Below are positions 68 through 27,303 of a DNA stretch of 31,064 nt, in pieces; positions within the stretch are counted from its first letter, which is position 1, and the number at the start of each line of letters is the position of its first letter. The stretch is from positions 1 through 31,064 of IMG/VR virus record IMGVR_UViG_3300022752_004607, one strand, 5' to 3'. Both the position numbers and the translations under genes were made by a program. This DNA comes from a virus. The notes under the pieces were generated by a model. The model had not been told where the DNA came from. It searched no databases and saw nothing but the letters and a program-made list of their open reading frames with translations.

Positions 68-89
68 TGTTCTCTCTTTAATTTACTTC

Positions 90-122
90 AATATACGAAA
101 TTTCTTTTGCTCAAACTATTCC
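90..122 (-). promoter_or_regulatory. Promoter-like element, class B (GGAATAG-N15-TTTCGTATATT)
   Basis: Minus strand: GGAATAG at 122-116, 15 bases, then TTTCGTATATT at 100-90. It lies between the terminator at 131-160 and the partial gene starting at 67. It is one of ten copies in the window with identical internal spacing per class. The TATATT core fits a -10 box of the Bacteroidota TAnnTTtG type. Confidence 0.75.
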
Positions 123-130
123 TCTTTTAG

Positions 131-160
131 AAAAACCTGCCCCACTTTCGTGAGGCAGGG
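131..160 (-). terminator. Rho-independent terminator after the tRNA-like elements
   Basis: On the minus strand a 10-bp stem (159-150 with 145-136) closes a GAAA tetraloop (149-146). All pairs are Watson-Crick except one G-U. A run of five T follows at 135-131. It sits just downstream of the 190-250 tRNA-like element and ahead of the next promoter, so it would end the transcript begun near 553. Confidence 0.85.
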
Positions 161-189
161 TAAAAAGAAAACTGGTTATGAAGCAGCGC

Positions 190-250
190 AGTCAGGGCAG
201 GATTCGAACCTGCTGCTGTAATAGTGCGTTTACCCTTCCGCCACCTGACT
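190..250 (-). tRNA. Degenerate tRNA-like element, Leu-type D-arm, anticodon arm missing
   Basis: Seen: acceptor strands AGTCAGG (250-244) and CCTGACT (196-190), extendable by one pair (251/189), and a perfect T-arm GCAGG-TTCGAAT-CCTGC (213-197). The D-arm region GCGGAAGGGTAAACGC resembles tRNA-Leu. Only 12 bases lie between D-arm and T-arm, where about 22 or more are expected, so no anticodon stem-loop can be drawn. Total length is 61 nt. It may be a tRNA-Leu pseudogene with an internal deletion or a tRNA mimic. No CCA is encoded. Its ends match those of the element at 392-511 almost exactly. Confidence 0.45.
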
Positions 251-251
251 G

Positions 252-391
252 GATTGCTTCTTATTCTATTACCCCTTTATATCGAAGCTAACCTGCTTAT
301 CTATGGTAGCAATCTATTCTAATTGCGACTTACACTACGAATTAACGTAGACACCAATAATACGAGTTTTTCAAGGGTACAGGTTATTAGT
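252..391 (-). other. Spacer between tRNA-like elements with inverted repeats; no gene seen
   Basis: No ORF of note. On the minus strand GATTGCT (314-308) pairs perfectly with AGCAATC (258-252), bounding a 63-nt segment with an inner AAGC/GCTT hairpin. A second hairpin, CTACG-TTAATT-CGTAG, spans 350-335. The 63-nt unit is tRNA-sized but has no recognisable T-arm. It could be a linker folded for RNA processing. Confidence 0.35.
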
Positions 392-511
392 AGTCAGGAC
401 AGGATTCGAACCTGCAACGATGCAACCTTTATGACTTCTCGCGTCCAAGTGGTTATGGACCGTGGTGTTTTCAGGATGTGATACCATTTTCACATTACGC
501 ATTACCTGACT
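392..511 (-). ncRNA. Oversized tRNA-like RNA (120 nt) sharing ends with the 190-250 element
   Basis: Acceptor strands AGTCAGG (511-505) and CCTGACT (398-392), again with an extra pair (512/391), and T-arm GCAGG-TTCGAAT-CCTGT (415-399). Between them are 89 bases instead of about 41-45. They contain a strong hairpin ATGTGA-AAATGGTA-TCACAT, whose loop has the GG typical of a D-loop, and a second hairpin GTCCA-TAACCACT-TGGAC. ATGC and GCAT near the two ends could form an inner helix. A canonical anticodon arm could not be placed. Candidates are an interrupted tRNA, a fusion of two tRNAs, or a structured tRNA mimic. Too short for a normal tmRNA, and no tag ORF was recognised. Confidence 0.45.
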
Positions 512-552
512 ATATTTTAATATTTCAAATAACTTTTTTCTTTCTTACCTTC

Positions 553-582
553 AATATACGAAATCTCTCTCAGATCTCCAAA
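553..582 (-). promoter_or_regulatory. Promoter-like element, class A (TTTGG-N14-TTTCGTATATT) for the tRNA-like cluster
   Basis: Minus strand: TTTGG at 582-578, 14 bases, TTTCGTATATT at 563-553. The spacer can fold as AGATCT-GAGAG-AGATTT with one G-U pair. The -35-like box lies inside the last codons of the GIY-YIG gene. The first RNA downstream is the tRNA-like element starting near 511, about 41 bases on. Confidence 0.75.
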
Positions 583-1280
583 TTTTCTTTAAATTTCCAT
601 TTAAAACCACCTGCGGTTTTTTGTTTGCCTGAACAGCAATCTTTGATTCCATTTTTCAAACCATTCAATTTCATGTGTGAGTGTGTTGTATGAAATAAAT
701 AAGTAGCTGCGTCTATAACCATGTTAAATTCACCCACCACATTTCCTTCTAAATCTAACTGAATCACTGGTTTGCCATGTGATTTTTTTCTAGCTGCTCT
801 AATGTTTTCTAAATGAGTTTCGCTAAATGGGTTTGGTATGCCCTTTTTGGTTTGGCTTATTTTATCACCCCATGTTACGTTTCTACCTTTTTTAGATTCG
901 CTCATTTTAACTTTAGATCCTTCTGTGAAACGAAATTGTTTTTTATTTTCACTATGTTTTTTCTTTCTTTCTTCTGTCCAAGCTATAGAAATGGTTTCAT
1001 TGTCGTGGTGGTTTGTCAACTTGAAACCTAGATATTTCATATAGCGTATCCAAAACACCTCTAAAAAATCTACATTTTCTATATCTGTTTCCTCTAAAAC
1101 TGTGTTGATAGTTTCAAGGTTGTTTTTTCTATACCACCTACAAAGTTTGTCTGTTTTAGATTTTGTATTTTCTCTCCAAAAATGTTCGTTGATTCTTGTT
1201 GTTACCGGGTTACGTGTTGTTTTACCAACATAACATAAATTTGGGTGGTTTGGAAATTCAATTAAATATATATAAGCCAT
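570..1280 (-). CDS. GIY-YIG homing endonuclease with NUMOD repeats (SegE-like)
   Basis: Predicted free-standing homing endonuclease that would cleave a DNA target and spread itself by gene conversion. The N-terminus carries the GIY-YIG core as YIYLIEF followed by CYVGKTTR. The middle has three NUMOD3-like DNA-binding repeats (around SESKKG, KISQTKKG and SETHLENIRAARK). The C-terminus is a NUMOD1-like helix-turn-helix segment ending GGFKWKF. This is the usual order in T4 Seg-type enzymes. The start at 1280 puts the catalytic fold at the N-terminus; in-frame ATG at 1310, preceded by a GGGG stretch, is an alternative, and a TTG lies at 1328. It follows the DUF932 gene closely and its 3' end holds the promoter of the tRNA-like cluster. 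Confidence 0.85.
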   Translation of the reverse strand: MAYIYLIEFPNHPNLCYVGKTTRNPVTTRINEHFWRENTKSKTDKLCRWYRKNNLETINTVLEETDIENVDFLEVFWIRYMKYLGFKLTNHHDNETISIAWTEERKKKHSENKKQFRFTEGSKVKMSESKKGRNVTWGDKISQTKKGIPNPFSETHLENIRAARKKSHGKPVIQLDLEGNVVGEFNMVIDAATYLFHTTHSHMKLNGLKNGIKDCCSGKQKTAGGFKWKFKENLEI

Positions 1281-1337
1281 GGTCTGTAAAAATGGGGTTC
1301 TATTATACATATTACCCCATTTTCGCAAATCGCATTT

Positions 1338-2141
1338 TTACATGAAACTTTCTGCAAGCTCCCATAATTCACTATTGATTCTAACGTCTTGTTGGAAGTT
1401 TTTAATTTTTCTAGCTTTACGGATTTTAGCACCTGACATATATGTGAATTCACCACTTAGAATTTTTTCCTGGATACGATTAAATACTTCCCATAATCCG
1501 TTTCCTTCATCTTCTTTACGGGTTGGCTCAAGTAGCTGATCCAAGTCTATTTTCACATTGTCCACTTCATCTTCAGTGAATCGAGTTGCAAGTGCTTTTT
1601 TAGCAAATTCAATTGTTTGCTCTTCACTTAGTTGAACCTGTTTCATTTTGTTCATTGATTCAACTGTAAGTGGAAGCTGATCAACTACTACTCGAATCTG
1701 TGCTTGCAATTCTTCAAATGTATAACCCATATGGCGAATTTTCAAATCAGAGAATTCTTGAGTGGAAACAACCAATCCATTTTCACACACCATTCGGAAA
1801 ATTGCACATTTGAATGTAAACGCATTTTTTCCATCGTTTGAATTTGTTAATAGGATTTGTGGAAATACTGTATCACCGTCAGCACCATTAATTACTACAT
1901 CTGGGTTGCGGAATACAACTAAGTGTTTTTGGAACCCTTTTGTTCCTTCTTTTCTAGCTTTTACCTCTTTGGCATCAACTACACCCCATCCTAATTGTTC
2001 CATATCTTCAATCACTCGATTGGTTGGAATGTGGGTAAATTTGTTTGAAACCGTTGGAGCGGCTGTTTCTGTAAAAATTGACTTAGCGCGTTGTTTAATT
2101 TCGCTTGTTGTCAAAAAACTGTCTTGGCTTAAATTTAACAT
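1338..2141 (-). CDS. DUF932-type phage/plasmid protein, copy 1
   Basis: 267-residue protein of the DUF932 (phage/plasmid-like) type, a family common on phages and plasmids with no settled biochemical role. Family-like stretches are the central LTNSNDGKNAFTFKCAIFRMVCENGLVV block and a conserved tail with EDEGNGLWEVFNRIQEKI. The same landmarks recur in the protein at 3140-3889 (LTVTNSCNGSKPINLEMGMYRL-ICSNGAV and EDEGNDLWTVFNRIQENL), so the two are paralogues. It has its own class-A promoter-like element 48 bases upstream. The start context is AATTATG. Function unknown; the pair may act on DNA or on host defence, but nothing in the sequence decides this. Confidence 0.8.
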   Translation of the reverse strand: MLNLSQDSFLTTSEIKQRAKSIFTETAAPTVSNKFTHIPTNRVIEDMEQLGWGVVDAKEVKARKEGTKGFQKHLVVFRNPDVVINGADGDTVFPQILLTNSNDGKNAFTFKCAIFRMVCENGLVVSTQEFSDLKIRHMGYTFEELQAQIRVVVDQLPLTVESMNKMKQVQLSEEQTIEFAKKALATRFTEDEVDNVKIDLDQLLEPTRKEDEGNGLWEVFNRIQEKILSGEFTYMSGAKIRKARKIKNFQQDVRINSELWELAESFM

Positions 2142-2188
2142 AATTTTTCTTTTTTTTAATTTAACTTTCTTTCTTTTTTCTTATTTTT

Positions 2189-2218
2189 AATATACGAAAA
2201 CTTTTTTAGTTCTCCAAA
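2189..2218 (-). promoter_or_regulatory. Promoter-like element, class A, upstream of DUF932 copy 1
   Basis: Minus strand: TTTGG at 2218-2214, 14 bases, TTTCGTATATT at 2199-2189. The spacer contains AACT-AAAAA-AGTT. It sits three bases after the stop codon of the 2222-2554 gene and would give a leader of about 40 bases for the gene starting at 2141. Confidence 0.8.
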
Positions 2219-2221
2219 TTT

Positions 2222-2554
2222 TTATCTATAAAATTTACTATCATCTATATCAAATGAATCTTCGTCATCTGCATTGTAGTAGTCGTCTTTAACATCATCT
2301 ACTACATCTTCATCTTCGTCTCTATATTCAGGTAACAATCCAGCTAATTCAATAATATACCAAACCCTATTTTTGTACAAGTCAATTGATGTACCTCCAA
2401 TTTCAGTAACGTTTTTTTCAGTTAAAATAGCTAAATCAGCAATCAGTTCACAGGTAATTTGATCTACCTCCTCTATTGACATTTCTCCTGCTTTAAAACG
2501 TTTTTTCAAATCTAAATACTTCACTTCAATTACATGTTTTTCTTTCTTTGCCAT
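2222..2554 (-). CDS. Small acidic-tailed protein of unknown function
   Basis: 110 residues. The N-terminal two thirds look helical (KYLDLKKRFKAGEMSIEEVD and on). The last 35 residues are very rich in Asp and Glu (YRDEDEDVVDDVKDDYYN and on), a feature of DNA mimics and of disordered tails. No family was recognised. It follows the 2558-2842 gene by three bases and starts in an AGGTTATG context shared with several genes here. It is probably translated with the 2558-3078 genes as one unit from the element at 3103-3135. Confidence 0.75.
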   Translation of the reverse strand: MAKKEKHVIEVKYLDLKKRFKAGEMSIEEVDQITCELIADLAILTEKNVTEIGGTSIDLYKNRVWYIIELAGLLPEYRDEDEDVVDDVKDDYYNADDEDSFDIDDSKFYR

Positions 2555-2557
2555 AAC

Positions 2558-2842
2558 CTATTTTTTTACTATTCTACTTTCTATTAAATTTATAAACGCT
2601 TGTACTTCACCAAAGTCTGTAAAACGGATTGATGGTTCGGTGTTAAAAATTTCTACAAACCACTGTCCATCTTCTCCTATTTCATCGTTTGAATTTGAGA
2701 TTAAACTGAACCCCATTGCTATGTCGTATGTGTAGTAGTAAAATTCATCTTCTATCCAAAGTCCGCCTTGATCATCAGATACTTCAATTCCACCATCTTC
2801 TTGTTTTTCAAAGCCTAGTAATTGCAATTCTTTTTCTGTCAT
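2558..2842 (-). CDS. Small phage protein of unknown function
   Basis: 94 residues, acidic and rich in aromatic residues (GLWIEDEFYYYTYDIAMGF). It has no visible signal peptide or membrane segment and resembles small beta-rich phage proteins. The start codon overlaps the stop of the upstream gene as ATGA (2842-2839), so translation is probably coupled to it. No family was recognised. Confidence 0.75.
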   Translation of the reverse strand: MTEKELQLLGFEKQEDGGIEVSDDQGGLWIEDEFYYYTYDIAMGFSLISNSNDEIGEDGQWFVEIFNTEPSIRFTDFGEVQAFINLIESRIVKK

Positions 2843-3078
2843 TTTTTATCTATTTTATCTAATTCATCTCTAATAACAATCGCTGTTTCATATTCTTCCA
2901 TTTCAATAGCATGTTCTAACATATTATCAACCATTGCTCGAAAATCATTGTTGAATATATTTACTAATGCATCTTGTAAATACAGTTTATCATCTATGCA
3001 TAATTTACTATCTCGAATAATCGGATGAAAATCAGCATTGCTTGCCGCTATTTGGCTCATAATTTTTCTTTCATTCAT
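2839..3078 (-). CDS. Small protein with a UVR-like helical hairpin
   Basis: 79 residues if started at 3078 (MNERKIMSQIAAS). A longer in-frame reading to 3147 would run through the promoter element at 3103-3135 and is rejected. The C-terminal MLEHAIEMEEYETAIVIRDE resembles the UVR motif, a two-helix module in UvrB, UvrC and Clp-type partners that mediates protein contacts. The start has AAAGG two bases before TTATG. A similar but weaker motif closes the 11780-12085 protein. First gene of a three-gene unit running to 2222. Confidence 0.7.
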   Translation of the reverse strand: MNERKIMSQIAASNADFHPIIRDSKLCIDDKLYLQDALVNIFNNDFRAMVDNMLEHAIEMEEYETAIVIRDELDKIDKK

Positions 3079-3102
3079 AACCTTTATTTTTTTATTACTT
3101 GA

Positions 3103-3135
3103 AATATACGAAAGCCCTTTTACAAGGGCTATTCC
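3103..3135 (-). promoter_or_regulatory. Promoter-like element, class B, with a 7-bp inverted repeat in the spacer
   Basis: Minus strand: GGAATAG at 3135-3129, 15 bases, TTTCGTATATT at 3113-3103. The spacer folds as AGCCCTT-GTAA-AAGGGCT, immediately followed by TTTCG. It lies just after the stop of DUF932 copy 2 and 25 bases before the gene starting at 3078. The hairpin could also terminate the upstream transcript. Confidence 0.8.
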
Positions 3136-3139
3136 TTTT

Positions 3140-3889
3140 TTAAGCAAATGTTTCAGCTAAAGCAAACAATTGTTTATTCAATAAAATATCGTCGCTAGCG
3201 TTATTAACAGTTGATGTTAGGTTTTCTTGGATACGGTTGAACACTGTCCATAAATCGTTTCCTTCATCTTCGATTCGATTAACTGCAAGTATATCATCAA
3301 TATTAATATTTGATATATCATTGTATCTCAACTTAGCTGCTTCGTAAGCTAACTCTCTCATTTCTTTTACTGATAGGTTTGAATGTTTTAGTTTTTCAAA
3401 TTCATTTAATACTAAAGATGATTTACGATTAACAATGTTTAAATATTGATCTAAGTTTTTATAGTTAATTTCGGTATGTTTGATTTTTTGTGTTTCTGCA
3501 GCTTCATCAAATCGTACTGCTCCGTTAGAGCAAATTAAACGATACATGCCCATTTCTAAATTAATCGGTTTGCTTCCGTTACAACTATTTGTAACTGTTA
3601 ACGATAGCAATGCTTCATCTTTACCTTTATTGTTTTTTATAGCAAAATCAGGATGCTGTAATCGAACAAAATTATGTGCAATTTTACGACCTTTACCTCG
3701 TTGTTCAGCAACACTGTTTATTTGCCATCCTTCATTTTGTAGTTTTGAAACTACATCTAGTGTAGGAATATAAAACTCTTTTTGTTTAATTCGTTGTACA
3801 TTTAGAATATTATTGTTATCTAACGTGTTAGCAAATGCAATTGCTTTGTTTAAGTCATTTCCGACTTGAATAAAATTTCTTTTTAACAT
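3140..3889 (-). CDS. DUF932-type phage/plasmid protein, copy 2
   Basis: 249 residues, paralogous to the protein at 1338-2141 by shared order and spacing of motifs: an N-terminal VVSKLQNEGWQINSV block (VIEDMEQLGWGVVDAK in copy 1), the FVRLQHPDF segment, the LTVTNSCNGS core and the EDEGNDLWTVFNRIQENL tail. It ends with LFALAETFA, matching LWELAESFM in copy 1. The start is AAAAGATATG, five bases after the 39-residue gene at 3895-4014. The family is widespread on mobile elements but functionally uncharacterised. Retaining two diverged copies suggests they are not redundant. Confidence 0.8.
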   Translation of the reverse strand: MLKRNFIQVGNDLNKAIAFANTLDNNNILNVQRIKQKEFYIPTLDVVSKLQNEGWQINSVAEQRGKGRKIAHNFVRLQHPDFAIKNNKGKDEALLSLTVTNSCNGSKPINLEMGMYRLICSNGAVRFDEAAETQKIKHTEINYKNLDQYLNIVNRKSSLVLNEFEKLKHSNLSVKEMRELAYEAAKLRYNDISNINIDDILAVNRIEDEGNDLWTVFNRIQENLTSTVNNASDDILLNKQLFALAETFA

Positions 3890-3894
3890 ATCTT

Positions 3895-4014
3895 TTAATT
3901 ATATTTTGGTTTAACGTTTCCTTTTTTATCTACAGTATATCCTGTAGGTTTTTTTAAATTATCTGCTTTATTGTAGCGACCTTTTTTAGTTGATTTTCCT
4001 CCTGAACAGCTCAT
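3895..4014 (-). CDS. 39-residue basic micro-protein
   Basis: Begins MSCSGGKSTKKGRYNKAD and ends KKGNVKPKYN. It is lysine-rich with no membrane segment. Support: it fills the gap between the promoter-like element at 4033-4065 and the DUF932 gene, ends five bases before the next start codon, and has the same AAAAGATATG start context as its downstream neighbour. MSCSGG with basic repeats looks disordered and could bind nucleic acid. No family is known to me. Confidence 0.65.
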   Translation of the reverse strand: MSCSGGKSTKKGRYNKADNLKKPTGYTVDKKGNVKPKYN

Positions 4015-4032
4015 ATCTTTTAATTTTAAATA

Positions 4033-4065
4033 AATATATGAAAGGAGGATTGCTCCTCCTATTCC
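4033..4065 (-). promoter_or_regulatory. Promoter-like element, class B variant, with a perfect 7-bp hairpin
   Basis: Minus strand: GGAATAG at 4065-4059, 15 bases, then TTTCATATATT (one base off consensus) at 4043-4033. The spacer is a perfect inverted repeat AGGAGGA-GCAA-TCCTCCT (4060-4043), the most stable of the set. It lies three bases after the stop of the ATPase gene and 19 bases before the 39-residue gene. Dual terminator and promoter roles are likely. Confidence 0.75.
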
Positions 4066-4068
4066 TTT

Positions 4069-4878
4069 TTAATCAGCTTTTTCCATTTCATATGCATAAT
4101 GCACTCCGCCATTGTAGATTGAAAAGAACACTTTAAAATCCTTATCACAATCTCTATTTTTGCTAAAGTATAGTGATCGCTCTAATCCGTCTCGTGAACG
4201 TTCAACGTGGCAAAACGCATCAACCATGTGTTTTAATCTATTACTACCTGCGAAATCACCCGCTTTAGTCATTTGTTGAATGTTTATAAACGTAGTATAG
4301 TATTTGTTTTTGTTTCCGCCTTTTTTATGTTGATCTTGCAGATTCAAAAACCAAAACTCCGCAGCACTTTCAGTTGTACGATACGCATCTTTATACATCT
4401 CTAATACTTCAGCAATTGAATCAATTGCAATTACATCATATCCTTGATTAAATACGTATTCAATTGTTTCTTTTACTGTTTCTGAATGGTTTTTCAAAAA
4501 CAATGTTTGTACACAACTAAACTCTGGCATACGTTTGCAATATTTGTAATGCGCAATTTCATCCATTTCACCGCTAACAAACAATACTTTCAATCCTTGT
4601 TTAGTTAGTTTAGCTAATACATCAAGTACAATTGTTGATTTACCTGAACCAGGTCCACCTGCTAACATCATGTTAGTACCTGGCATTAAACCACCATCAG
4701 TTGAAAATATAACATCTAATTCAGTGTTTGTTTTCATAGGTCGAAACAATGCTTCACTAAATTGCAATTCACTACCTCTAACTAGTTTAATTTTGTTAGG
4801 GTTGAACTCGACTTGAACTTGTTGTTTTGCGGGACGACCGCGTTTTGCTGTACTCATAGGTTTTTTTACAATTTTCAT
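4069..4878 (-). CDS. RadA/RecA-superfamily ATPase with an N-terminal AT-hook
   Basis: 269 residues. A basic N-terminus has an AT-hook-like KRGRPAK (12-18). Walker A is GGPGSGKST (74-82) and Walker B is IAIDS (150-154). Between them VSGEMDEIAHYKYCKRM (101-117) resembles the post-Walker A segment of RadA/Sms, where a Glu contacts ATP. It lacks the RadA zinc finger and Lon-like domain, so it is only the core. It may drive strand exchange or branch migration in phage recombination, or act as a helicase loader. I do not call it UvsX because the typical UvsX P-loop (GxxxxxKS with KSF) is absent. It has its own class-B promoter-like element (4907-4939). Confidence 0.75.
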   Translation of the reverse strand: MKIVKKPMSTAKRGRPAKQQVQVEFNPNKIKLVRGSELQFSEALFRPMKTNTELDVIFSTDGGLMPGTNMMLAGGPGSGKSTIVLDVLAKLTKQGLKVLFVSGEMDEIAHYKYCKRMPEFSCVQTLFLKNHSETVKETIEYVFNQGYDVIAIDSIAEVLEMYKDAYRTTESAAEFWFLNLQDQHKKGGNKNKYYTTFINIQQMTKAGDFAGSNRLKHMVDAFCHVERSRDGLERSLYFSKNRDCDKDFKVFFSIYNGGVHYAYEMEKAD

Positions 4879-4906
4879 AACTTTTCTTTTTTTTAATTAT
4901 ACAATC

Positions 4907-4939
4907 AATATACGAATTCTCTTTTAAATTTTCTATTCC
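4907..4939 (-). promoter_or_regulatory. Promoter-like element, class B, upstream of the RadA-like ATPase
   Basis: Minus strand: GGAATAG at 4939-4933, 15 bases, ATTCGTATATT (one base off) at 4917-4907. The -10 core lies about 29 bases before the ATG at 4878. The spacer is AT-rich with only a weak inverted repeat, so hairpin formation is not essential to the motif. Confidence 0.75.
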
Positions 4940-4944
4940 TTTAT

Positions 4945-5139
4945 TTATTTTCCATCAATATAACCACCATCCAAACAAACATGACATACCTCAGGAAACC
5001 AAATAATTCTAATTATAGCATAAATGAGTAATACCCACCCTATTAAAGCATATTTAGAATTAAATAAAAACCAAATACCATATTTAACCCATCCACCTAT
5101 AACTAATATCGCAACTATAAAATATAAAACAGTAAACAT
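4945..5139 (-). CDS. Two-segment small membrane protein
   Basis: 64 residues. A hydrophobic segment at about 3-25 (FTVLYFIVAILVIGGW) and another at about 32-49 (LIGWVLLIYAIIRIIWF) predict a helical hairpin in the membrane. The short tail has CHVCLDGG, a CxxC pair that could bind metal or form a disulfide. It is transcribed alone from the element at 5158-5190. Small phage membrane proteins like this can be holins or superinfection-exclusion factors, but nothing here decides. Confidence 0.7.
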   Translation of the reverse strand: MFTVLYFIVAILVIGGWVKYGIWFLFNSKYALIGWVLLIYAIIRIIWFPEVCHVCLDGGYIDGK

Positions 5140-5157
5140 ATTTTTTTAATTTATTAA

Positions 5158-5190
5158 AATATACGAAAGTTCTTTTATAAAAACTATTCC
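5158..5190 (-). promoter_or_regulatory. Promoter-like element, class B, upstream of the membrane protein
   Basis: Minus strand: GGAATAG at 5190-5184, 15 bases, TTTCGTATATT at 5168-5158. The spacer pairs as AGTTTTT-ATAA-AAGAACT with one G-U. GGAATAG begins just after the stop of the 5192-5380 gene. Confidence 0.8.
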
Positions 5191-5191
5191 T

Positions 5192-5380
5192 TTATTGAAT
5201 GATTTTTTCATAAGCGTTTACAATTGCTTTTTGAATACTCATAGTAGGATTTTCTTTCATTTCTTCTAAAGCAAAAACTAACAATTCAGCTTCAACACTT
5301 TGTTGTTTTGCTTCGTTTAATGCTTGTTTAGCGGTTTTTAATTGATGCCATAATTCTTGTGATTCTTCTTCTATACTCAT
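5192..5380 (-). CDS. Small coiled-coil protein
   Basis: 62 residues, nearly all predicted helix with heptad-like spacing (ELWHQLKTAKQALNEAKQQ then LLVFALEEM). Its start overlaps the stop of the upstream 68-residue gene as ATGA (5380-5377), so the two are translationally coupled. Likely an oligomerising accessory protein; no family was recognised. Confidence 0.7.
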   Translation of the reverse strand: MSIEEESQELWHQLKTAKQALNEAKQQSVEAELLVFALEEMKENPTMSIQKAIVNAYEKIIQ

Positions 5381-5583
5381 AAATATTCCTTTTCTAATTT
5401 AAATGATGTCCCATACTGAATCATTGTTAATTGACGGTTGTTTGTAAGTGGTTTTGCATCTTCTATATTATCACTAAAAGCAGGATAACCGCCTCGCAAG
5501 CCACAAAATACTTGACAATGTTCATTTAATACAATGAATTCAGGTAATTTAGGTTCTTTTGATTCTTTTAACTTTTTCTTCAT
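5377..5583 (-). CDS. Small basic-N-terminus protein of unknown function
   Basis: 68 residues. It begins with a lysine-rich stretch (MKKKLKESKEPKLPEF) followed by a compact part with FCGLRGGYPAFSDNIEDA. First gene of a two-gene unit behind the class-A element at 5596-5625, which places its ATG 13 bases after the -10 core, leaving almost no leader. No family was recognised. Confidence 0.7.
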   Translation of the reverse strand: MKKKLKESKEPKLPEFIVLNEHCQVFCGLRGGYPAFSDNIEDAKPLTNNRQLTMIQYGTSFKLEKEYL

Positions 5584-5595
5584 AATTTTTCCTTC

Positions 5596-5625
5596 AATAT
5601 ACGAAAGAAAATTTAGAAAGCCAAA
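5596..5625 (-). promoter_or_regulatory. Promoter-like element, class A, with very short leader
   Basis: Minus strand: TTTGG at 5625-5621, 14 bases, TTTCGTATATT at 5606-5596. No clear hairpin in the spacer. The ATG at 5583 is so close that the message would be nearly leaderless. Confidence 0.75.
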
Positions 5626-5627
5626 TC

Positions 5628-5888
5628 CTAAAATCTAGCTAAAGGGTCAACTTTAATTACACCCCCATCAATTTCACCTTTAGAGTTAAGTGTTTTAATT
5701 TCAGGAATCACTTCAATAAGTACTCCGTTAATTTTAAATGATCCACCTTGTTTAAGTAGTTTTTTGAATAATATTTGATGATTTTCATTCCATGATTCAC
5801 TTGCAGATAAAACTACTTTTTTATCTACTATTTCATCATCAAATTTGATGATAATTCCTTTTCGTATTGATTGAGGTGATATTGCCAT
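5628..5888 (-). CDS. Small protein of unknown function
   Basis: 86 residues, rich in short hydrophobic strands (GIIIKFDDEIVDKKVVLSAS, FKINGVLIEVIPEI), suggesting a small beta fold. It has no signal peptide. Last gene of the long unit that appears to start at the promoter near 7858-7887; 37 AT-rich bases separate it from the previous gene with no promoter element. No family was recognised. Confidence 0.7.
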   Translation of the reverse strand: MAISPQSIRKGIIIKFDDEIVDKKVVLSASESWNENHQILFKKLLKQGGSFKINGVLIEVIPEIKTLNSKGEIDGGVIKVDPLARF

Positions 5889-5925
5889 ATTTTAAAATAT
5901 ATTATTTAAATGTTCTGGGCAGATA

Positions 5926-6165
5926 TCAACTATATGTTGTTTCCACCACGTTTTGAGTTTCTTCAATAATTTCTGCATCTTGTATAGTTTCAGCAAATAA
6001 AAAATGTGTTTCAGTTCGTAGTACATGATCAACACGAAAAAAATAATCTCTACACATTTTGACTAGCTCTAAATCAACTATACCTTCTTTGTTTACAAAA
6101 TTATGTAGTGGTATATCTCTGTGAATAATATAACATTTTCCATTATGTCTATAAATAAGCATCAT
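5926..6165 (-). CDS. Small protein of unknown function
   Basis: 79 residues, beginning MMLIYRHNGKCYIIHRDIPL, with alternating hydrophobic and charged residues typical of a small alpha/beta domain. The start overlaps the stop of the gene above as ATGA (6165-6162), indicating coupled translation. No catalytic motif was recognised. Confidence 0.7.
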   Translation of the reverse strand: MMLIYRHNGKCYIIHRDIPLHNFVNKEGIVDLELVKMCRDYFFRVDHVLRTETHFLFAETIQDAEIIEETQNVVETTYS

Positions 6166-6398
6166 TTGATATCGTATTGTTTTTTATATTTTTCAATAAA
6201 TGATTCTCCAACACCTATGTCTATTATTTCATAGTTGTTTGGAATTAATGGATTACGTTTTTTTTCATCAATGATATCATCAACACTAGACTCTGTTACC
6301 ATCATGTAGTGTTTTTTTCCGGTTGGTTTTTTGTAAATCACTACAACCGGTAATTTCTTTTCTGATGGTCGTCCTTTATTTTCGTGAGATATTCTCAT
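6162..6398 (-). CDS. Small protein of unknown function
   Basis: 78 residues. The N-terminus MRISHENKGRPSEKKLPVV is basic and contains GRP, then strands VVIYKKPTGKKHYMMVTE and a C-terminal helix. Its first 23 bases overlap the 3' end of the lipoprotein-like gene at 6376-6531 in another frame. Part of the 7838-5628 unit. No family was recognised. Confidence 0.7.
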   Translation of the reverse strand: MRISHENKGRPSEKKLPVVVIYKKPTGKKHYMMVTESSVDDIIDEKKRNPLIPNNYEIIDIGVGESFIEKYKKQYDIK

Positions 6399-6531
6399 GT
6401 TTTATTTTGTTTTGAGAATATGCATCACACCCGGATTTTGGTGATTTACATCCAGCTAAATAAAATCCAATTGTAATTCCTGCTAATATATGAATTATAT
6501 ACATCCATATTGTTTTCCAATCTGTTTTCAT
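6376..6531 (-). CDS. 51-residue lipoprotein-like or membrane micro-protein
   Basis: Begins MKTDWKTIWMYIIHILAG, then GITIGFYLAGC. The hydrophobic stretch (about 8-27) ends in LAGC, a good lipobox, followed by KSPKSGCDAYSQ. It may be a lipidated protein, or simply an anchored single-pass one. It ends inside the first codons of the 6162-6398 gene (23-base overlap) and begins three bases before the stop region of the gene at 6535, filling an otherwise empty gap. Confidence 0.6.
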   Translation of the reverse strand: MKTDWKTIWMYIIHILAGITIGFYLAGCKSPKSGCDAYSQNKIKHENISRK

Positions 6532-6534
6532 ATT

Positions 6535-6849
6535 TTAAATAATTTGCTCATTTTGGTTTATTTTTTCAAATGGAGAAGGATCTAACTTTAATCCCCACAT
6601 CAAATGAACCCATTGCATTTCACGTTCAGCGTATTTGGCGGGGAGTCGAAATGTTTTCATAAAGTATTTTTTGCCCCATTCCATCCATTCATCGCTTTGT
6701 GATTCAGTCATTGTCCATTGATTAAACCAATTGTCTTTACGATCTTTTACATCATCGTAAGTAACTTCATGTCCAGCAATTTTAAACATTTTGTTGATTA
6801 AATCAACTACTGCTTTTTCTTCTTTTTGTTGTCTTGATAACCTTTTCAT
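6535..6849 (-). CDS. Conserved-looking phage protein of unknown function
   Basis: 104 residues, mostly helical, unusually rich in Trp (NWFNQW, DEWMEWGKKYFM, MQWVHLMWGL). It begins with a basic helix MKRLSRQQKEEK. Its ATG overlaps the stop of the 61-residue gene above (6849-6846). The aromatic-rich helical composition suggests a folded binding protein, but no family could be assigned. Confidence 0.7.
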   Translation of the reverse strand: MKRLSRQQKEEKAVVDLINKMFKIAGHEVTYDDVKDRKDNWFNQWTMTESQSDEWMEWGKKYFMKTFRLPAKYAEREMQWVHLMWGLKLDPSPFEKINQNEQII

Positions 6850-7031
6850 TTTTTTTCTATTAATTGTTCAAAATCTTCTCTTTTAATCGATATACGAACT
6901 CCATCTATGTCAGCAAAGACATCTTTAGGGAATTTTAAAATGTTTGTTAACTTAGATGGGTCTATTTCAATGTGTTTTGAGTAATGTATTTCACCTGCTA
7001 TTCTAACTAAAACTGATTTTTTTATTGCCAT
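6846..7031 (-). CDS. Small protein of unknown function
   Basis: 61 residues (MAIKKSVLVRIAGEIHYSKH...). Probably a small beta-sheet protein by its alternating pattern. It overlaps the end of the phosphoesterase gene by 10 bases and the following start by 4, so it sits inside a tightly coupled run of genes. No family was recognised. Confidence 0.7.
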   Translation of the reverse strand: MAIKKSVLVRIAGEIHYSKHIEIDPSKLTNILKFPKDVFADIDGVRISIKREDFEQLIEKK

Positions 7032-7735
7032 TTTATTTCATTTGTTATGTTGTCCCATTCAAATGTGAATGGTAAATTTGCGTATTGGTATCGTTCATTC
7101 AAAATAGATGCATTGAAAAAATGGGTATGCCCATCAAAATAATAACCATAACCACCATGAATATGTCCAAACACGTGAATTTTTGGACGAATTTCATCTA
7201 TTCGAGAACGTAATGTTTCACATCCAACTCGAATCGTATGTCCTCCTGGTATGTCTAAATATCCAAATGGGGGACCATGTGTAACTAAAATATCTGTGTT
7301 TGATGGAATGGCATCCCATTTTGCTTTCATTTCTTCACTACCACGAACCAAATTGAATGCCCAATTGTAAAATTCCGGTTGCCAAGGTGAACCATAGATG
7401 CGAATATTATCTTCTGGATGATCTCCATTTGGTCCATCAAAATATAAAACACATTCTTCGTCCTGTAAATAGTCGATTGTTTTATAACCCATTAAGATAC
7501 CTGCCATTTTTTCAGGGTCATTTTCCATTAAACGATCATGGTTACCTGCAATAAATATTTTTGTATCGTAGTTGTCTATGTTATTAAACCAATTGAAAAA
7601 TCCAAATGCTTCATTTATAGAATAACCTGTGTTCATAAAATCCCCAGCATGTATCAATAGATCACCTCCAGGTAAATCATTTTCACATAAGGAATGTTTT
7701 GTGTGTGTATCAGAAATAAGCGAAACCTTTAACAT
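7022..7735 (-). CDS. Calcineurin-like metallophosphoesterase
   Basis: 237 residues from ATG 7735 (MLKVSLISDTHTK); an upstream in-frame ATG at 7759 would overlap the preceding micro-gene and is less likely. All metal-binding blocks are present in order: SDTH (8-11), GD (31-32), GNHD (64-67), then THGPP and GHIH toward the C-terminus. This is the fold of small phosphoesterases of the MPPED type that act on cyclic nucleotides or phosphodiesters. A role in removing a host second messenger or defence signal is possible but only inferred. Lies four bases after the 32-residue membrane protein gene. Confidence 0.9.
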   Translation of the reverse strand: MLKVSLISDTHTKHSLCENDLPGGDLLIHAGDFMNTGYSINEAFGFFNWFNNIDNYDTKIFIAGNHDRLMENDPEKMAGILMGYKTIDYLQDEECVLYFDGPNGDHPEDNIRIYGSPWQPEFYNWAFNLVRGSEEMKAKWDAIPSNTDILVTHGPPFGYLDIPGGHTIRVGCETLRSRIDEIRPKIHVFGHIHGGYGYYFDGHTHFFNASILNERYQYANLPFTFEWDNITNEIKWQ

Positions 7736-7739
7736 AAAT

Positions 7740-7838
7740 TTAAGTAGATAAGATAGCAACTAGTGCTATAAATACAAACCATCCTACAATAAAACTAACA
7801 GCAATTAATGTTTCTTTTTTTTCTTTAATAAATTCCAT
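7740..7838 (-). CDS. 32-residue single-pass membrane micro-protein
   Basis: A charged N-terminus (MEFIKEKKETL) is followed by one hydrophobic helix (IAVSFIVGWFVFIALVAIL). It is the first gene after the class-A element at 7858-7887, has an AAAGTTATG start like its neighbours, and its stop is four bases before the phosphoesterase ATG. It is small enough to have been missed by length cut-offs. Confidence 0.65.
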   Translation of the reverse strand: MEFIKEKKETLIAVSFIVGWFVFIALVAILST

Positions 7839-7857
7839 AACTTTTTTAATTTTCTTA

Positions 7858-7887
7858 AACATACGAAAAAGATTTTAAATTTCCAAA
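7858..7887 (-). promoter_or_regulatory. Promoter-like element, class A variant
   Basis: Minus strand: TTTGG at 7887-7883, 14 bases, TTTCGTATGTT (one base off) at 7868-7858. TTTGG directly follows the stop codon of the 768-residue gene. It would drive an eight-gene unit from 7838 to 5628. Confidence 0.75.
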
Positions 7888-10194
7888 TTATTTTATTATT
7901 CTTTTAAAAGTTCCATCTTCATATACTTCAAGTATGATTCCTGTAGCATTTTCATCAATATCTTGACCTAATAAATTAGTACGGCGAAATATAACTTTAG
8001 TGTTACTTCTATTATCAATTAATATAGGATCAAACATTTCATAAGCACCATCTATATCATATTGAGTTAATCTGTAATAGTTGTATATAGGTTTAACTGT
8101 TGCATCTGTAACATCATAATGGAGTTCTTGTGTTGAATTACCTGCAGCTGCAGCTGTTGCTATTTCAGACCATATTATTCCATTTTCACTTTTTTCTACT
8201 ACAAAATGTGTCGTATTATATTCAGTAGCAGTTGCCCAATATATTAAATTATTACCATTTACTGGTTCACCAGAAAAATATAATAACTTAACTGGTAGTG
8301 CCCCCATTGTTATAATTAAAAATTGTTGTGTTTGCGTGTTGCATCCAAAGGCATTGGATACTTGAACTCGCACAGCACCATTAGTTGTTGTTTGTGGCCA
8401 TGTGAATGTTATGGTTGGTGAATTGGAATTAGGTATATTCGTCCATAACGGAGCAGACATTGTTTGTGTGTATGACCAAGCATAAGTAACTCCTGCTATC
8501 GGTGTAATCGAGTATGTCTCAGAGGTACCTGCAATAATATTGTTGTTTCCTGTCACACTGCTTACTACTGGAATACTAGGATTGACAGTAACATTGGTGT
8601 TAGTTGATGCGTTGCATCCATTTGATGAAACGGTGAGTGTATAGCTTTGTGTGGCATTGGGTGATGCCCACGGACTAGGTGCTGATGTATTTGTTAGATT
8701 AACATTAGGTGACCATGTGTATGTAATAGGAGCTCCTGCAGGCAATCCAGTCACCGTGCTAACAAGTTGAGTAGATGATCCTGCACAAATTGAATTAGAA
8801 ACCGGTGTTACCGTAACTTGGGGTAACGGGTTAACTACAATGGTAGTTGAAACGCAGTTTGTACTAAATAACCCAGAATTAAAATTTCTAGCATAGTATG
8901 TTGTAGTCGAGGTAGGTGTTACGCTTATTGAATTTCCTGTAGCAATTTGTCCTACTCCACACCCACTCGCAAACCAATAAACAGTACCACTTATACCATT
9001 AGCAGTTAATGTAGTCGACTGCCCAATGCAAATTGTATTTGCTGATGCTGTTATAGAAGTAGGATCAGGTGGTGGTGGAGTAGTGCAAATTAAACCTATT
9101 TGAAATGAGCTATTTGTGCTATACCCATGAACCAAAATATAATAATTAAGACCTGGAACTGATGTCCACTGGTAAGATGCAGAGGTTGTAGCGCACGATG
9201 GCCCCAAATCATCATTTCCCCCAACACAGGTCAGAGAAGAACAATTAGGTCCACTAAAAATGGAGATTTTGCTATCCCAAACGGTATTGCAAAGATAGGC
9301 CGTCATAATTTGACCGGTTCCTGTAATCTTAAACCAAACACCAGGCATAGTTTGGCTTACACCACAAGTATTATTCTCTCCAGTTCCGCTATTAGTTGCA
9401 TTAACAGTAGTAGCTGAGAGTAATTGGCCACACGATATTGCATACGCATTACATACCAAGTCGTTTACCGGAGCAGAAGGAGCCGAACAAGTTATACAAC
9501 TAACGGTTGATGTTCCACATAAAGACGCAGTTCCACAACCTGAACCTGTATTGTAATGAACATAGACAGTTCCAGTGTATGATGAAGCCCAGTTTAATGG
9601 TGCGTTTCCATAAGCAACGATTGGTCCGTTATATGTTCCTGTATGAATTGTAATATAACCTCCTAAACTATATCCAAACTGATACGTTTGTCCTGCAACT
9701 ATTCCTGATACGGTTGAATACTCACTTTGAAAGTTACAACTAGAAATGACAACCGTTGTAGGCGTGTTTGGAGCAACTGCTGAACCATATCCACTTGGAT
9801 TTGTGCAACCCGGGGTGACAGCGCCACAACTTCCTATACAAGTTTGTCCTAATGTAGTTGCAGTACCGGCTACGGGTTGAATAGTATTTAACAGGACAGT
9901 TCCTATGTTATTTACTATCTGAACTCTCATTTCAGAAGGCCATGACCCTGCAATTGTTCTAAAAACACGAATTGTTGAACCTGAAGATGCTGAGAAATTA
10001 TAGTTTAGTGGCCCAAACCCTGAAGCAAGTGTTATATTACTTAAAACTGTTACACCATTAACAGAAACAGAAACATAACCTCCGTTCCAACCATCTCCAA
10101 ATGTATCGGTAAGTTTAATGGTGTGGGTGCAAGTTTGTGATAATGTTAAAAGTGTTGTAAAAAATACAAAAACAGATAGCAAAAAATTCTTCAT
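7888..10194 (-). CDS. Secreted multidomain adhesin-like protein with T9SS-like C-terminal tail
   Basis: 768 residues. A signal peptide (about 1-19, cleavage near TLSQ/TC) is followed by a domain with FGDGWNGGYVSVSVNG of the kind common in Bacteroidota surface proteins. Next is a PVNDLVCNAYAISCG domain (about 235-370), then several Ig-like or PKD-like repeats beginning SITASANTICIGQST, a pre-tail region (PVKLLYFSGEPVNGNNLIYW) and a final RTNLLGQDIDENATGI-ILEVYEDGTFKRIIK, close in form to type IX secretion sorting tails. Many paired Cys suggest an exported, disulfide-bonded protein. Codon and base use look richer in GC than the neighbours. It may be a captured host gene acting as an adhesin, a decoy, or a host-range factor. 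Confidence 0.8.
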   Translation of the reverse strand: MKNFLLSVFVFFTTLLTLSQTCTHTIKLTDTFGDGWNGGYVSVSVNGVTVLSNITLASGFGPLNYNFSASSGSTIRVFRTIAGSWPSEMRVQIVNNIGTVLLNTIQPVAGTATTLGQTCIGSCGAVTPGCTNPSGYGSAVAPNTPTTVVISSCNFQSEYSTVSGIVAGQTYQFGYSLGGYITIHTGTYNGPIVAYGNAPLNWASSYTGTVYVHYNTGSGCGTASLCGTSTVSCITCSAPSAPVNDLVCNAYAISCGQLLSATTVNATNSGTGENNTCGVSQTMPGVWFKITGTGQIMTAYLCNTVWDSKISIFSGPNCSSLTCVGGNDDLGPSCATTSASYQWTSVPGLNYYILVHGYSTNSSFQIGLICTTPPPPDPTSITASANTICIGQSTTLTANGISGTVYWFASGCGVGQIATGNSISVTPTSTTTYYARNFNSGLFSTNCVSTTIVVNPLPQVTVTPVSNSICAGSSTQLVSTVTGLPAGAPITYTWSPNVNLTNTSAPSPWASPNATQSYTLTVSSNGCNASTNTNVTVNPSIPVVSSVTGNNNIIAGTSETYSITPIAGVTYAWSYTQTMSAPLWTNIPNSNSPTITFTWPQTTTNGAVRVQVSNAFGCNTQTQQFLIITMGALPVKLLYFSGEPVNGNNLIYWATATEYNTTHFVVEKSENGIIWSEIATAAAAGNSTQELHYDVTDATVKPIYNYYRLTQYDIDGAYEMFDPILIDNRSNTKVIFRRTNLLGQDIDENATGIILEVYEDGTFKRIIK

Positions 10195-10197
10195 ATG

Positions 10198-10277
10198 GTA
10201 TCCTTTAAAATTAAACGATACTCACTTGAAGAATCCATTTCGGAAACCCCCATCTACCATGGGCCGGTCGAGTTTCC
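10198..10277 (-). promoter_or_regulatory. Two-hairpin leader of the secreted adhesin-like gene
   Basis: Upstream of the ATG at 10194. Distal hairpin: GGAAAC (10277-10272) pairs with GTTTCC (10247-10242) around an inner CCCAT-GGTAG-ATGGG stem. Proximal hairpin: GTATC (10221-10217) pairs with GATAC (10202-10198), extended by TTTAA/TTAAA. Its 3' arm holds the AAAGGA next to the start, so ribosome access could be controlled. I do not recognise it as a named riboswitch. Confidence 0.5.
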
Positions 10278-10299
10278 TATAAATATTTTAAAACAAAAA

Positions 10300-10729
10300 A
10301 AACGTAGGAGGATTGACGGGTTAATTACTATTTGATGTTATCCGTTTACAATTTGTCGTTTTGGTTCTTTAAGAGTTCCAGATGATACGACTTTATCAAT
10401 TCTGGAATCAATATAGCGGCGAGTTTCGTCGATATCACGGTGAAGAACTGTTTCAAGTACATGTTCGTGTTTTTGAATTTCCTCAACCTCATTTTGAATA
10501 TGACGATGGGCGTCTTCTATCTCTTTATCAATTCTACGATTCATGTAATCGATATCTTGATGAAGATTAAACGTTGAACTATTTAATTGTTTTTCTAGTT
10601 TGATAATCTTAACCATACCTACAACAACAACAGTTAATATAATTACTGCTACAATCGTAAGCATGCCTAAAACAAAGTAAGTTGTTTCCATGTTTTTAAA
10701 ATTTAATATGTCAAAGAACTCCTACGTTT
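10300..10729. repeat. 11-bp inverted repeat flanking the 10338-10691 gene
   Basis: AAACGTAGGAG at 10300-10310 and CTCCTACGTTT at 10719-10729 are perfect reverse complements. The minus-strand message would begin with one arm, just after tRNA-Glu, and end with the other, which is followed by a run of T. No local partner for the 3' arm was seen, so a long-range panhandle is possible. Confidence 0.5.
10338..10691 (-). CDS. Membrane-anchored coiled-coil protein
   Basis: 117 residues. One membrane helix (about 5-28, VLGMLTIVAVIILTVVVVGMV) is followed by a long charged coiled coil with a repeated pattern: HQDIDYMNRRIDKEIEDA and HRDIDETRRYIDSRIDKV. A cytoplasmic or periplasmic stalk tethered to the inner membrane is predicted, the topology seen in spanin-like or exclusion proteins, though no family was recognised. 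It lies between the tRNA-Glu gene and the adhesin-like gene and is flanked by the 11-bp inverted repeat. Confidence 0.75.
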   Translation of the reverse strand: METTYFVLGMLTIVAVIILTVVVVGMVKIIKLEKQLNSSTFNLHQDIDYMNRRIDKEIEDAHRHIQNEVEEIQKHEHVLETVLHRDIDETRRYIDSRIDKVVSSGTLKEPKRQIVNG

Positions 10730-10730
10730 G

Positions 10731-10802
10731 TAGTCTCACGGGGAATTGAACCCCGCTTTTTAGGATGAAAACCTAACGTCCTAACCGATAGACGATGAGA
10801 CC
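10731..10802 (-). tRNA. tRNA-Glu (anticodon UUC)
   Basis: 72 nt on the minus strand. Acceptor GGTCTCA/TGAGACT (first pair G-U), D-arm GTCTATCGGTTAGGAC as in bacterial tRNA-Glu, anticodon stem TTAGG/CCTAA with loop TTTTCAT giving anticodon TTC, 4-base variable loop, and T-arm CGGGG-TTCAATT-CCCCG. Discriminator is A and CCA is not encoded. It suits the AT-rich phage, which uses GAA heavily. Confidence 0.95.
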
Positions 10803-10805
10803 CTT

Positions 10806-11171
10806 TTAAAATTTAAACACAACCCCTGTTGTGTTAAATATGTTTTTTCCGGTAATAAATACCTTTTGAAATACTTTAAAGTTTGGAGTAATATAAAATC
10901 GAGCCCGAATATCATATGCTCCAAAACTTAACCAATCTTCTGTTGTCAAACCATTTAAAAAAATATTACTGTTTAACTGAATACTTACTGTTATTTTAAA
11001 TCGTGGGAATGGATTATATAATAATATCCCATCATGTGTTTGAGGATAAGTAATATTTGCAAAATTTGCTCTAGCTACAGAATCTAAATTATATTGTTCA
11101 ATTCTTTTAAATGGTTGACTAAATCCCATCCAGGGAAATACTAACAATAAAATTAGTAACTGTTTTTTCAC
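10806..11171 (-). CDS. Small exported protein of unknown function
   Basis: 121 residues starting with GTG. A signal peptide (MKKQLLILLLVFPWMGFSQ, about 1-19) precedes a mature part with alternating strands (FKITVSIQLNSNIFLNGL, YDIRARFYITPNFKVFQK) ending in an aromatic residue (VVFKF), as outer-membrane beta proteins often do. The start overlaps the stop of the micro-gene above as GTGA, so translation is coupled. It may be a periplasmic or outer-membrane host-modifying factor. Confidence 0.7.
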   Translation of the reverse strand: MKKQLLILLLVFPWMGFSQPFKRIEQYNLDSVARANFANITYPQTHDGILLYNPFPRFKITVSIQLNSNIFLNGLTTEDWLSFGAYDIRARFYITPNFKVFQKVFITGKNIFNTTGVVFKF

Positions 11172-11260
11172 TTATGTTTTTTCTTTTTAGAAACCGCTAT
11201 AATCCAGTTAAGCCAATCTTTAAACTGTTCTACATTTTGTTTTGAACTATTTTTACTCAT
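11168..11260 (-). CDS. 30-residue micro-protein coupling two larger genes
   Basis: Begins MSKNSSKQNVEQFKDWLNW and ends with a lysine-rich tail. Its ATG lies inside the last codons of the SWIM protein gene (8-base overlap) and its stop overlaps the GTG start of the exported protein. It may be a real short amphipathic peptide or mainly a translational bridge. Confidence 0.5.
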   Translation of the reverse strand: MSKNSSKQNVEQFKDWLNWIIAVSKKKKHK

Positions 11261-11729
11261 TTATTTCATTAATTAAAATTTGCTCTACTTCTTTAACGTG
11301 TTTGCATCTGCCTTTTGACTTCCATGTTCCTGGGCAATTGCATTTTGGGTTTCCGTATTTGTTTAATGTAACTGTATATGTTCCATTTCCACTTGCACTT
11401 TCAAATTCCCATTTTTGTACTTTTACTTTAGGTACTTCTACTTTTTCTTTTAGTAGTTGCTCTTCAGTTAGGTACTCTACAATATCATTTAATGTTGTTT
11501 TAGGATGACATTCAATACCTTCAGGGTATATAAATGTTTTATCTCCAAAACGAACTATTATTTTTGGTAAGTATTCATGTTTAGGAACTTGATATTTAAA
11601 TGTTTTACAACCAGCAGTTACAATCCCATCTTGTTGTGGATAGATTTTGACTTGTTCACCTGGTTCTAGGTGAATTAGTTTTGTTTCTTTTCTACCGTCT
11701 TCAAACTCTAAATATAATTCCTTTAACAT
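11253..11729 (-). CDS. SWIM zinc-finger protein
   Basis: 158 residues from ATG 11729 (MLKELYLEFEDGRKET); a longer reading to 11777 would run through the promoter. The C-terminus has the SWIM signature CNCPGTWKSKGRCKH (C-x-C, then C-x-H), a zinc module that binds DNA or protein. The N-terminal 90 residues are beta-rich, resembling a small barrel. It may be a phage transcription or DNA-repair accessory factor. The AAAGGTTATG start context recurs here, behind a class-A promoter-like element. Confidence 0.85.
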   Translation of the reverse strand: MLKELYLEFEDGRKETKLIHLEPGEQVKIYPQQDGIVTAGCKTFKYQVPKHEYLPKIIVRFGDKTFIYPEGIECHPKTTLNDIVEYLTEEQLLKEKVEVPKVKVQKWEFESASGNGTYTVTLNKYGNPKCNCPGTWKSKGRCKHVKEVEQILINEINE

Positions 11730-11748
11730 AACCTTTTTCTTTGCTTGA

Positions 11749-11778
11749 AATATACGAAAACTTTCTTTGAAAACCAAA
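11749..11778 (-). promoter_or_regulatory. Promoter-like element, class A, upstream of the SWIM gene
   Basis: Minus strand: TTTGG at 11778-11774, 14 bases, TTTCGTATATT at 11759-11749. The spacer can pair TTTTC-AAA-GAAAG. It directly follows the stop of the 11780-12085 gene. This is the right-most copy in the window. Confidence 0.8.
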
Positions 11779-11779
11779 T

Positions 11780-12085
11780 TTATTTTTTCTTTTCTTTTAA
11801 AAATTTAATAGCTTTTACTATTTCAGCACATGTTTCATAATCTTCATTGTCTTGTAAAATAGGTATATTTTGTTCTAAAGTTACTACAAAATCTTGCCTA
11901 TCTACTGTTATATCATAAATGGTCTGTTCTTGTTCTACTAGAATTGAAAGTGCATGTAAATGCCTTTTTCTACCATTTAAATTTTTTAAAATAGTTTCTA
12001 CTAATGCCTTTGAAATTCTTAAATCACGATTTGCAACCATTCTTTCAAATTCATCACTATCAAATACACTAATTTCAGTTGCCAT
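11780..12085 (-). CDS. Small helical protein with a UVR-like C-terminus
   Basis: 101 residues (MATEISVFDSDEFERMVANR). Predicted all-helical. The tail QDNEDYETCAEIVKAIKFLK resembles UVR-type helical hairpins that pair regulators with partner proteins, as in the 2839-3078 protein, but the match is loose. It follows the 51-residue gene by one base. No enzyme motif was seen. Confidence 0.65.
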   Translation of the reverse strand: MATEISVFDSDEFERMVANRDLRISKALVETILKNLNGRKRHLHALSILVEQEQTIYDITVDRQDFVVTLEQNIPILQDNEDYETCAEIVKAIKFLKEKKK

Positions 12086-15200: not shown

Positions 15201-15209
15201 ATTGTGAAT

Positions 15210-17481: not shown

Positions 17482-17491
17482 GGTTTATAAT

Positions 17492-18154: not shown

Positions 18155-18156
18155 TT

Positions 18157-20699: not shown

Positions 20700-20711
20700 A
20701 ACCTAAATATA

Positions 20712-22876: not shown

Positions 22877-22881
22877 ATATC

Positions 22882-24638: not shown

Positions 24639-24643
24639 AACTT

Positions 24644-27292: not shown

Positions 27293-27303
27293 TACCTAAA
27301 GAT

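Follow-up and report, generated by a model that had tools for sequence, protein, structure and literature searches.

The virus contig IMGVR_UViG_3300022752_004607 raises the question of how two different upstream boxes can precede one and the same promoter-like core, and of what would read each of them. The stretch analyzed here (31,064 nucleotides, referred to as the window) is the entire 31-kb IMG/VR contig, and its minus strand holds nearly all of the genes. It contains ten copies of an element with an 11-nucleotide core, TTTCGTATATT, which is preceded either by TTTGG (class A) or by a box containing GGA (class B). The combined evidence from the window and from related phages makes it likely that these elements are early- or middle-type promoters with one core and alternative TTTGG or GGA boxes, some of which have a terminator nested in the spacer.

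Ten elements with a common core

A direct scan of the window, allowing at most one mismatch in the 11-mer, recovered the ten minus-strand elements listed in the initial annotation. Five have the form TTTGG-N14-TTTCGTATATT (positions 553, 2189, 5596, 7858, and 11749) and five the form GGAATAG-N15-TTTCGTATATT (positions 90, 3103, 4033, 4907, and 5158). Chance is excluded for these elements because dinucleotide shuffles are expected to contain almost none (0.01 for class A, 0.00 for class B). The 11-mer alone was matched 12 times with up to one mismatch (2.3 expected); the two extra matches, at 2354 and 22900, lie on the same strand as the elements and have no upstream box.

Conserved geometry in related phages

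The window is a genome fragment of a large, T4-like phage of Flavobacterium-type Bacteroidota. Relatives were collected both by a search with the element and by a search with an ATPase protein, yielding contigs of up to 174 kb. Gp23-type major capsid genes, as in the T4-like Gp23 lineage, were found in 10 of 16 relatives; the window fragment is without that gene. With the capsid protein of one relative, G011, as the basis of comparison (61% identical), the closest cultured relatives are Flavobacterium phages vB_FspM_immuto (Immutovirus; immuto in the following), whose host is Flavobacterium sp. LMO8. This capsid relationship and a CHU_C-associated Ig domain encoded in the window support Bacteroidota as hosts. 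At the DNA level, no similarity to phage records was found for positions 1–12000 of the window.

The motif search in relatives yielded more than 500 further elements, in which both geometries are kept. In the relatives' loci, TTTGG occurred at 125 sites with a gap of 14 nucleotides and at no more than two with any other gap tested, and GGAATAG at 151 sites with a gap of 15 and at none with other gaps. Whole genomes provide the fairer spacing test, since the loci of the element search had been picked by a class B match. There, GGA-N24-TATATT was present in 28 (G001) and 34 (G009) upstream regions of the early domains, with other gaps found at most once; outside the early domains, TTTGG-N19-TATATT occurred six times in G001 and eight times in G009, and not at all on the antisense strand. 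The exact spacing of the two classes and their shared core, as noted in the initial annotation, are thus supported by the window shuffles and by the relatives.

After the removal of near-duplicates, 432 class B and 104 class A sites remained, with an almost invariant core common to both. With TATATT set as −12 to −7, TTTGG covers −36 to −32, GGA −39 to −37, and AAGGA(A/C) about −41 to −36. Class B boxes begin with GGAA (323 sites), GGAC (87), GGAT (15), or GGAG (7), so that only GGA(A/C) is near-invariant; GGAATAG, originally taken as the class B box, has the exact spacing and is the commonest local form of AAGGA(A/C). An open reading frame (ORF) of at least 40 codons starts within 58 nucleotides after 171 of 179 class B sites (median 24 nucleotides) and 116 of 142 class A sites (median 23), compared with 16% of random positions. 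The sites are co-oriented with the genes on one strand and lie between them. In immuto, the form GTTG[CG]-N14-nTTCnTAT[AC]TT was found mostly before early genes (27 sense sites versus one antisense, none with other gaps); class B is absent there, and the −33 box begins with G instead of T. Judged from these sequence patterns, a promoter function of the ten elements is very probable. Our literature searches turned up no paper describing these motifs.

The two classes are distributed differently over the genomes. Class B is limited to one small-gene domain of approximately 20 kb per genome (e.g., 61–80 kb in G001), whereas class A sites are scattered genome-wide. A third class, which like the spacer hairpins and the hybrid site described below was absent from the initial annotation, consists of a single box, ATATTTATAAtAAAA, located about 15 nucleotides before structural genes (tail sheath, tail fibre, and head–tail adaptor). 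It looks like a late-type class and a counterpart of the T4 late promoters (TATAAATA, read by gp55), which likewise form a separate single-box class, although the box itself differs and the ten elements do not belong to it. A late-like single box, ATATTTATAATAAAA, is found in the window at 29867–29881 (−). A conserved helical protein of about 240 amino acids with a weak sigma-region-2 match is encoded in 8 of 9 relatives searched (G001 56461–57198 and orthologs) and in immuto (78174–78872, annotated there as hypothetical). It had no sequence match in the PDB, and its PDB fold matches, though mostly sigma factors, were individually not significant; these weak resemblances make it a candidate late sigma factor. 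As it is present in phages with and without class B alike, it is not a class B-specific reader.

Exchange of the upstream boxes between orthologous genes

Genomes with class B (B-positive) carry 14–46 GGA-N24-TATATT sites on one strand (seven in the short window), while B-negative genomes carry 0–4 per strand and 12–20 class A sites. By average amino acid identity (AAI), the near-complete B-positive genomes form one cluster (58–83%, versus 51–58% to B-negative genomes); the 43-kb fragment G010 is more distant (53–59%). When genes preceded by class B were compared with their B-negative orthologs, 45 pairs had class A on the B-negative side, eight had both patterns there, 26 had no recognized pattern, and none had a late-like box. 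Orthologs of late genes were late or unrecognized. Within the B-positive clade, 35 A/B swaps were detected at orthologous genes.

The initial annotation had suggested that class A and class B starts might turn on at different times. Two temporal classes, with class B activated by a phage factor at its own time, would agree with the confinement of class B to one domain as opposed to the genome-wide occurrence of class A, and with the frequent retention of the class between B-positive orthologs (218 B–B and 142 A–A ordered pairs). The 35 swaps within the clade and the 45 B-to-A pairs across clades, compared with no B-to-late pair, render this rather unlikely. Because orthologs exchange A for B but never B for late, the two forms are better regarded as alternative upstream boxes on one core and not obviously as two temporal classes.

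The exchange can be followed at individual genes. In the gene tree of the KaiC/RecA-type ATPase, the clade of the window clusters with B-negative phages and yet has a class B promoter; a B-negative copy in locus L077 has TTTGG. Multiple changes involving class B, as the ATPase tree would need, were set aside, because AAI shows a single B-positive cluster. It follows that the ATPase gene itself probably moved, and a transfer of the gene with subsequent conversion of its promoter is likely. A possible route for the exchange is suggested by hybrid sites, GGATTTGG, in which the GGA of class B directly precedes TTTGG. They occur in both genome sets, albeit in small numbers (three and two sites), and one of them is the class A element at 5596–5628 (−) in the window. 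Since the more distant immuto uses GTTG[CG] at identical spacing, the TTG-type box is probably ancestral and the GGA-type box derived.

Relation to host promoters

In Flavobacterium, the promoter consensus consists of TTTG at −33 and TAHHTTTG at −7, in which T−6 and G−5 are near-invariant (PMC6847099). Class A resembles these sigma-ABfr promoters in TTTG at −36 to −33 (TTTG-N20-TATATT), in TATATT matching T−12 A−11 and T−8 T−7, and in an A-rich leader before the start codon. It differs in its rigid spacing, an extra G after TTTG, and the conserved extended element TTTCG. T−6 and G−5 are also missing, as TATATTTG was present in only 1 of 104 class A and 3 of 432 class B sites, and TAHHTTTG showed no enrichment before the genes of these phages (79 sense versus 127 antisense). 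The proposed fit of class A to the Bacteroidota −33/−7 pattern consequently stands for the TTTG box and the TA..TT positions but not for the remainder of the −7 box; class A is host-like without being canonical. Class B lacks the −33 box, with TTTG at −36 to −33 in 7 of 432 sites.

The core would act as an extended −10 element (TTTCG plus TATATT, about −17 to −7) with transcription predicted to start a few nucleotides further downstream. At a rigid distance from it, either TTTGG or AAGGA(A/C) would be presented. The probable partner of TTTGG is region 4 of the host primary sigma factor. For GGA, which is located directly upstream of the TTTGG footprint, the most likely reader is a factor of the phage, or a polymerase altered by it, and this reader would take over the −35 contact.

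Recognition of both classes by the unmodified host holoenzyme, which would rely on the extended −10 element and use GGA as an accessory contact (e.g., for the alpha subunit, or through DNA shape), appears comparatively unlikely. The almost invariant core TTTCGTATATT in both classes is compatible with it, as are the class A sites outside the class B domain, which often have no TTTCG, as if the extended −10 element were needed more where TTTG is missing. Invariance of the GGA box follows from how the class was defined, but its distance from the core is fixed to the exact base, and the change of box is clade-wide. In addition, when 84,980 bacterial and archaeal genomes were scanned for class B, only 14 single matches turned up, in scattered taxa and with no clustering around them, so that class B looks phage-specific. 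Since the class B upstream box cannot be a TTTG box, a second recognition mode, as envisaged in the initial annotation, is the simplest reading; our searches identified no reader for it. A phage factor or modified polymerase may be needed for GGA, with a probability somewhat below even.

In its logic, such a takeover would resemble the sigma appropriation at T4 middle promoters, which combine a MotA box centred at −30 with a −10 element (PMC2988021); no test supported homology. In both cases, a phage-specific box would replace the −35 contact while the −10 element (often extended in T4) is kept. The GGA of class B (−39 to −37; GGA(A/C) −39 to −36) is located further upstream than the MotA box and has another sequence. 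T4 early promoters (PMC2988021) are comparable in having several elements and in preceding many small early genes; their consensus is a different one, and the class B clade replaces the −33 element.

Hairpins in the promoter spacers

Column covariation in the class B spacers revealed two stem registers (z up to 6.8), both of which end exactly before TTTCG. A perfect 6-bp stem is present at one fixed place in 69 of 432 class B sites, with loops of mostly GCAA/GTAA or AATTAA, and at least five of six pairs are formed in 91 sites (about a fifth). Shuffling of the arms within genomes gave 6.6 expected stems against 32 observed. The stem GC content is 0.65 in hairpin sites versus 0.21, and the first position of the T-tract is T in 89 of 91 sites with a hairpin compared with 188 of 290 without (p = 4 × 10−12). 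Spacers of class A and of CTTG-type sites can hold even stronger hairpins followed by six to eight Ts, with TTTG forming the loop in some, and some spacer hairpins of immuto have TTCG loops. A test of G–U against A–C wobble pairs, which would distinguish RNA from DNA hairpins, was indecisive.

In the window, 7-bp spacer hairpins were found in the class A elements at 553–582 (−; RNA fold −7.3 kcal/mol) and 2189–2218 (−; −5.9 kcal/mol). The class B elements at 3103–3135 (−) and 4033–4065 (−) contain perfect 6-bp hairpins with GTAA and GCAA loops, respectively (both −13.0 kcal/mol; the former GC-rich), whereas the one at 5158–5190 (−) has an A/T-rich hairpin with an ATAA loop (−4.9 kcal/mol). Three window sites gave no fold. 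The GC-rich stem immediately followed by a T-run argues that the hairpins are probably intrinsic terminators of the preceding gene, nested between the promoter boxes: in a subset of sites, the terminator hairpin of the preceding transcript would sit in the spacer, and the TTT of the extended −10 element would begin its U-tract.

A processing site or a hairpin-recognizing polymerase is disfavored because the hairpin is optional. RNA elements of this kind (processing sites or leader structures between the genes of long operons) would account for the intergenic position of every site on the coding strand and for covarying hairpins at one fixed place. They are nevertheless improbable, as most sites have no hairpin, the TTTG box and TATATT have the geometry of host promoters, and one of the elements stands before a non-coding unit that a terminator closes off. 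This unit, behind the class A element at 553, has no ORF of 60 codons on the minus strand and contains two tRNA-like RNAs, each having an acceptor arm and a T arm, at 189–250 (−; Rfam tRNA, 40.9 bits; anticodon region shortened) and 391–511 (−; 121 nucleotides, 24.6 bits, below the gathering score). ARAGORN called neither of them. A terminator-like hairpin with a GAAA loop and a T-run at 131–160 (−) closes the unit, and the class B element at 90–122 (−) follows directly. The arrangement is what a transcription unit with its own start and stop signals would look like, and because a non-coding RNA unit lies behind it, the element at 553 is not a translation signal. A hairpin promoter of the N4 virion RNA polymerase type, to which the fixed place between two conserved boxes and the stable loops might point, was set aside as very improbable, since the hairpin is optional, its stem sequence is free, evidence of a virion-type polymerase was not obtained, and the T-tract coupling together with the T-runs of six to eight in class A-type sites indicates termination.

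Possible rewiring of early promoters and candidate readers

According to the proposed course of events, most of the early-gene domain of one clade carries GGA-type promoters where its relatives have TTG-type ones, and the core was kept. It is possible, though on balance doubtful, that in each genome of this clade approximately 20–40 early promoters exchanged a host-type TTG box for a new GGA box, that a sigma-appropriating phage factor unrelated to MotA/AsiA reads the latter, and that terminators were fitted into the spacers. Several points weigh against the main reading of the elements as promoters with alternative boxes. PF09158 (MotCF) was found in none of 10 phages, in a search that covered neither the family of the MotA N-terminal domain nor a T4 positive control; PF09010 (AsiA) was likewise found in none of 10 and had no match anywhere, again with no positive control. 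The multisubunit RNA polymerase family PF00623 was absent from all 16 relatives, with controls matched in 14 of 14 cases and single-subunit polymerases outside the search. Recognition of class A by a host sigma factor is uncertain because its −7 box is without T−6 and G−5. Class B hairpins are followed by a short T-tract, with three Ts before C in TTTCGTATATT, which is atypical of an intrinsic terminator, and the site and ortholog counts are not phylogenetically independent.

A multisubunit RNA polymerase of the phage was rejected as the reader, being absent from the relatives. The extracytoplasmic function (ECF) sigma factor of G009 was rejected as well: only this genome exceeded the Sigma70_r4 cut-off among 16 relatives and the Sigma70_r2 cut-off among 10. 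A phyletic search for the reader is weak because the B-positive genomes form one clade. Two protein groups restricted or nearly restricted to B-positive phages are candidates for reading GGA. The first comprises early AT-hook-like proteins of 107–111 amino acids with RGRPVN-type repeats, present mainly in B-positive phages (G001 62265–62600 and 65262–65585; locus L124). The second is an 82-amino-acid family modelled as a small alpha/beta fold (predicted local distance difference test score 81) with no significant structural match.

Transcription programs of Bacteroidota phages have been little mapped. The three classes and the A/B exchange provide a genome-wide, testable map for an aquatic phage group, with immuto as a cultured relative. 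The natural exchange of upstream boxes over an unchanged core also offers a clean setting for studying how the −35 contact made by the host polymerase is replaced by a phage. If terminators are indeed nested within the spacers of promoters, this would represent extreme genome compaction.

Further features of the window

The class A element at 2189 precedes DUF932 copy 1, and the class B element at 4907–4939 (−), which has no hairpin, precedes the KaiC/RecA-type ATPase gene. The class A element at 7858–7887 (−) has one mismatch in the 11-mer and is immediately followed by ATG. The element at 11749–11778 (−) is located before the ORF 11253–11777, the SWIM gene of the initial annotation. An additional class A-type site, TTTGG-N19-TATATT without TTTCG, was found at 20706–20735 (−). 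At 27299–27328 and 28010–28039 (−), strong terminator-like hairpins coincide with a CTTG-N20-TATCTT geometry that ends about 6 nucleotides before ATG; if these are promoters, nearly leaderless mRNAs are expected.

In G009 (88.4–88.9 kb; locus L137), and in this one relative only, an ECF-like sigma gene with regions 2 and 4 adjoins the ATPase gene. An ORF of 252 amino acids (570–1328, −), situated between the tRNA-like unit of the window and DUF932 copy 1, resembles GIY-YIG-type homing endonucleases by sequence reading and has no Pfam match. The region 13750–26083 (−) contains a long series of glycosyltransferase-, methyltransferase-, and aminotransferase-like genes, and a comparable block is found in immuto.

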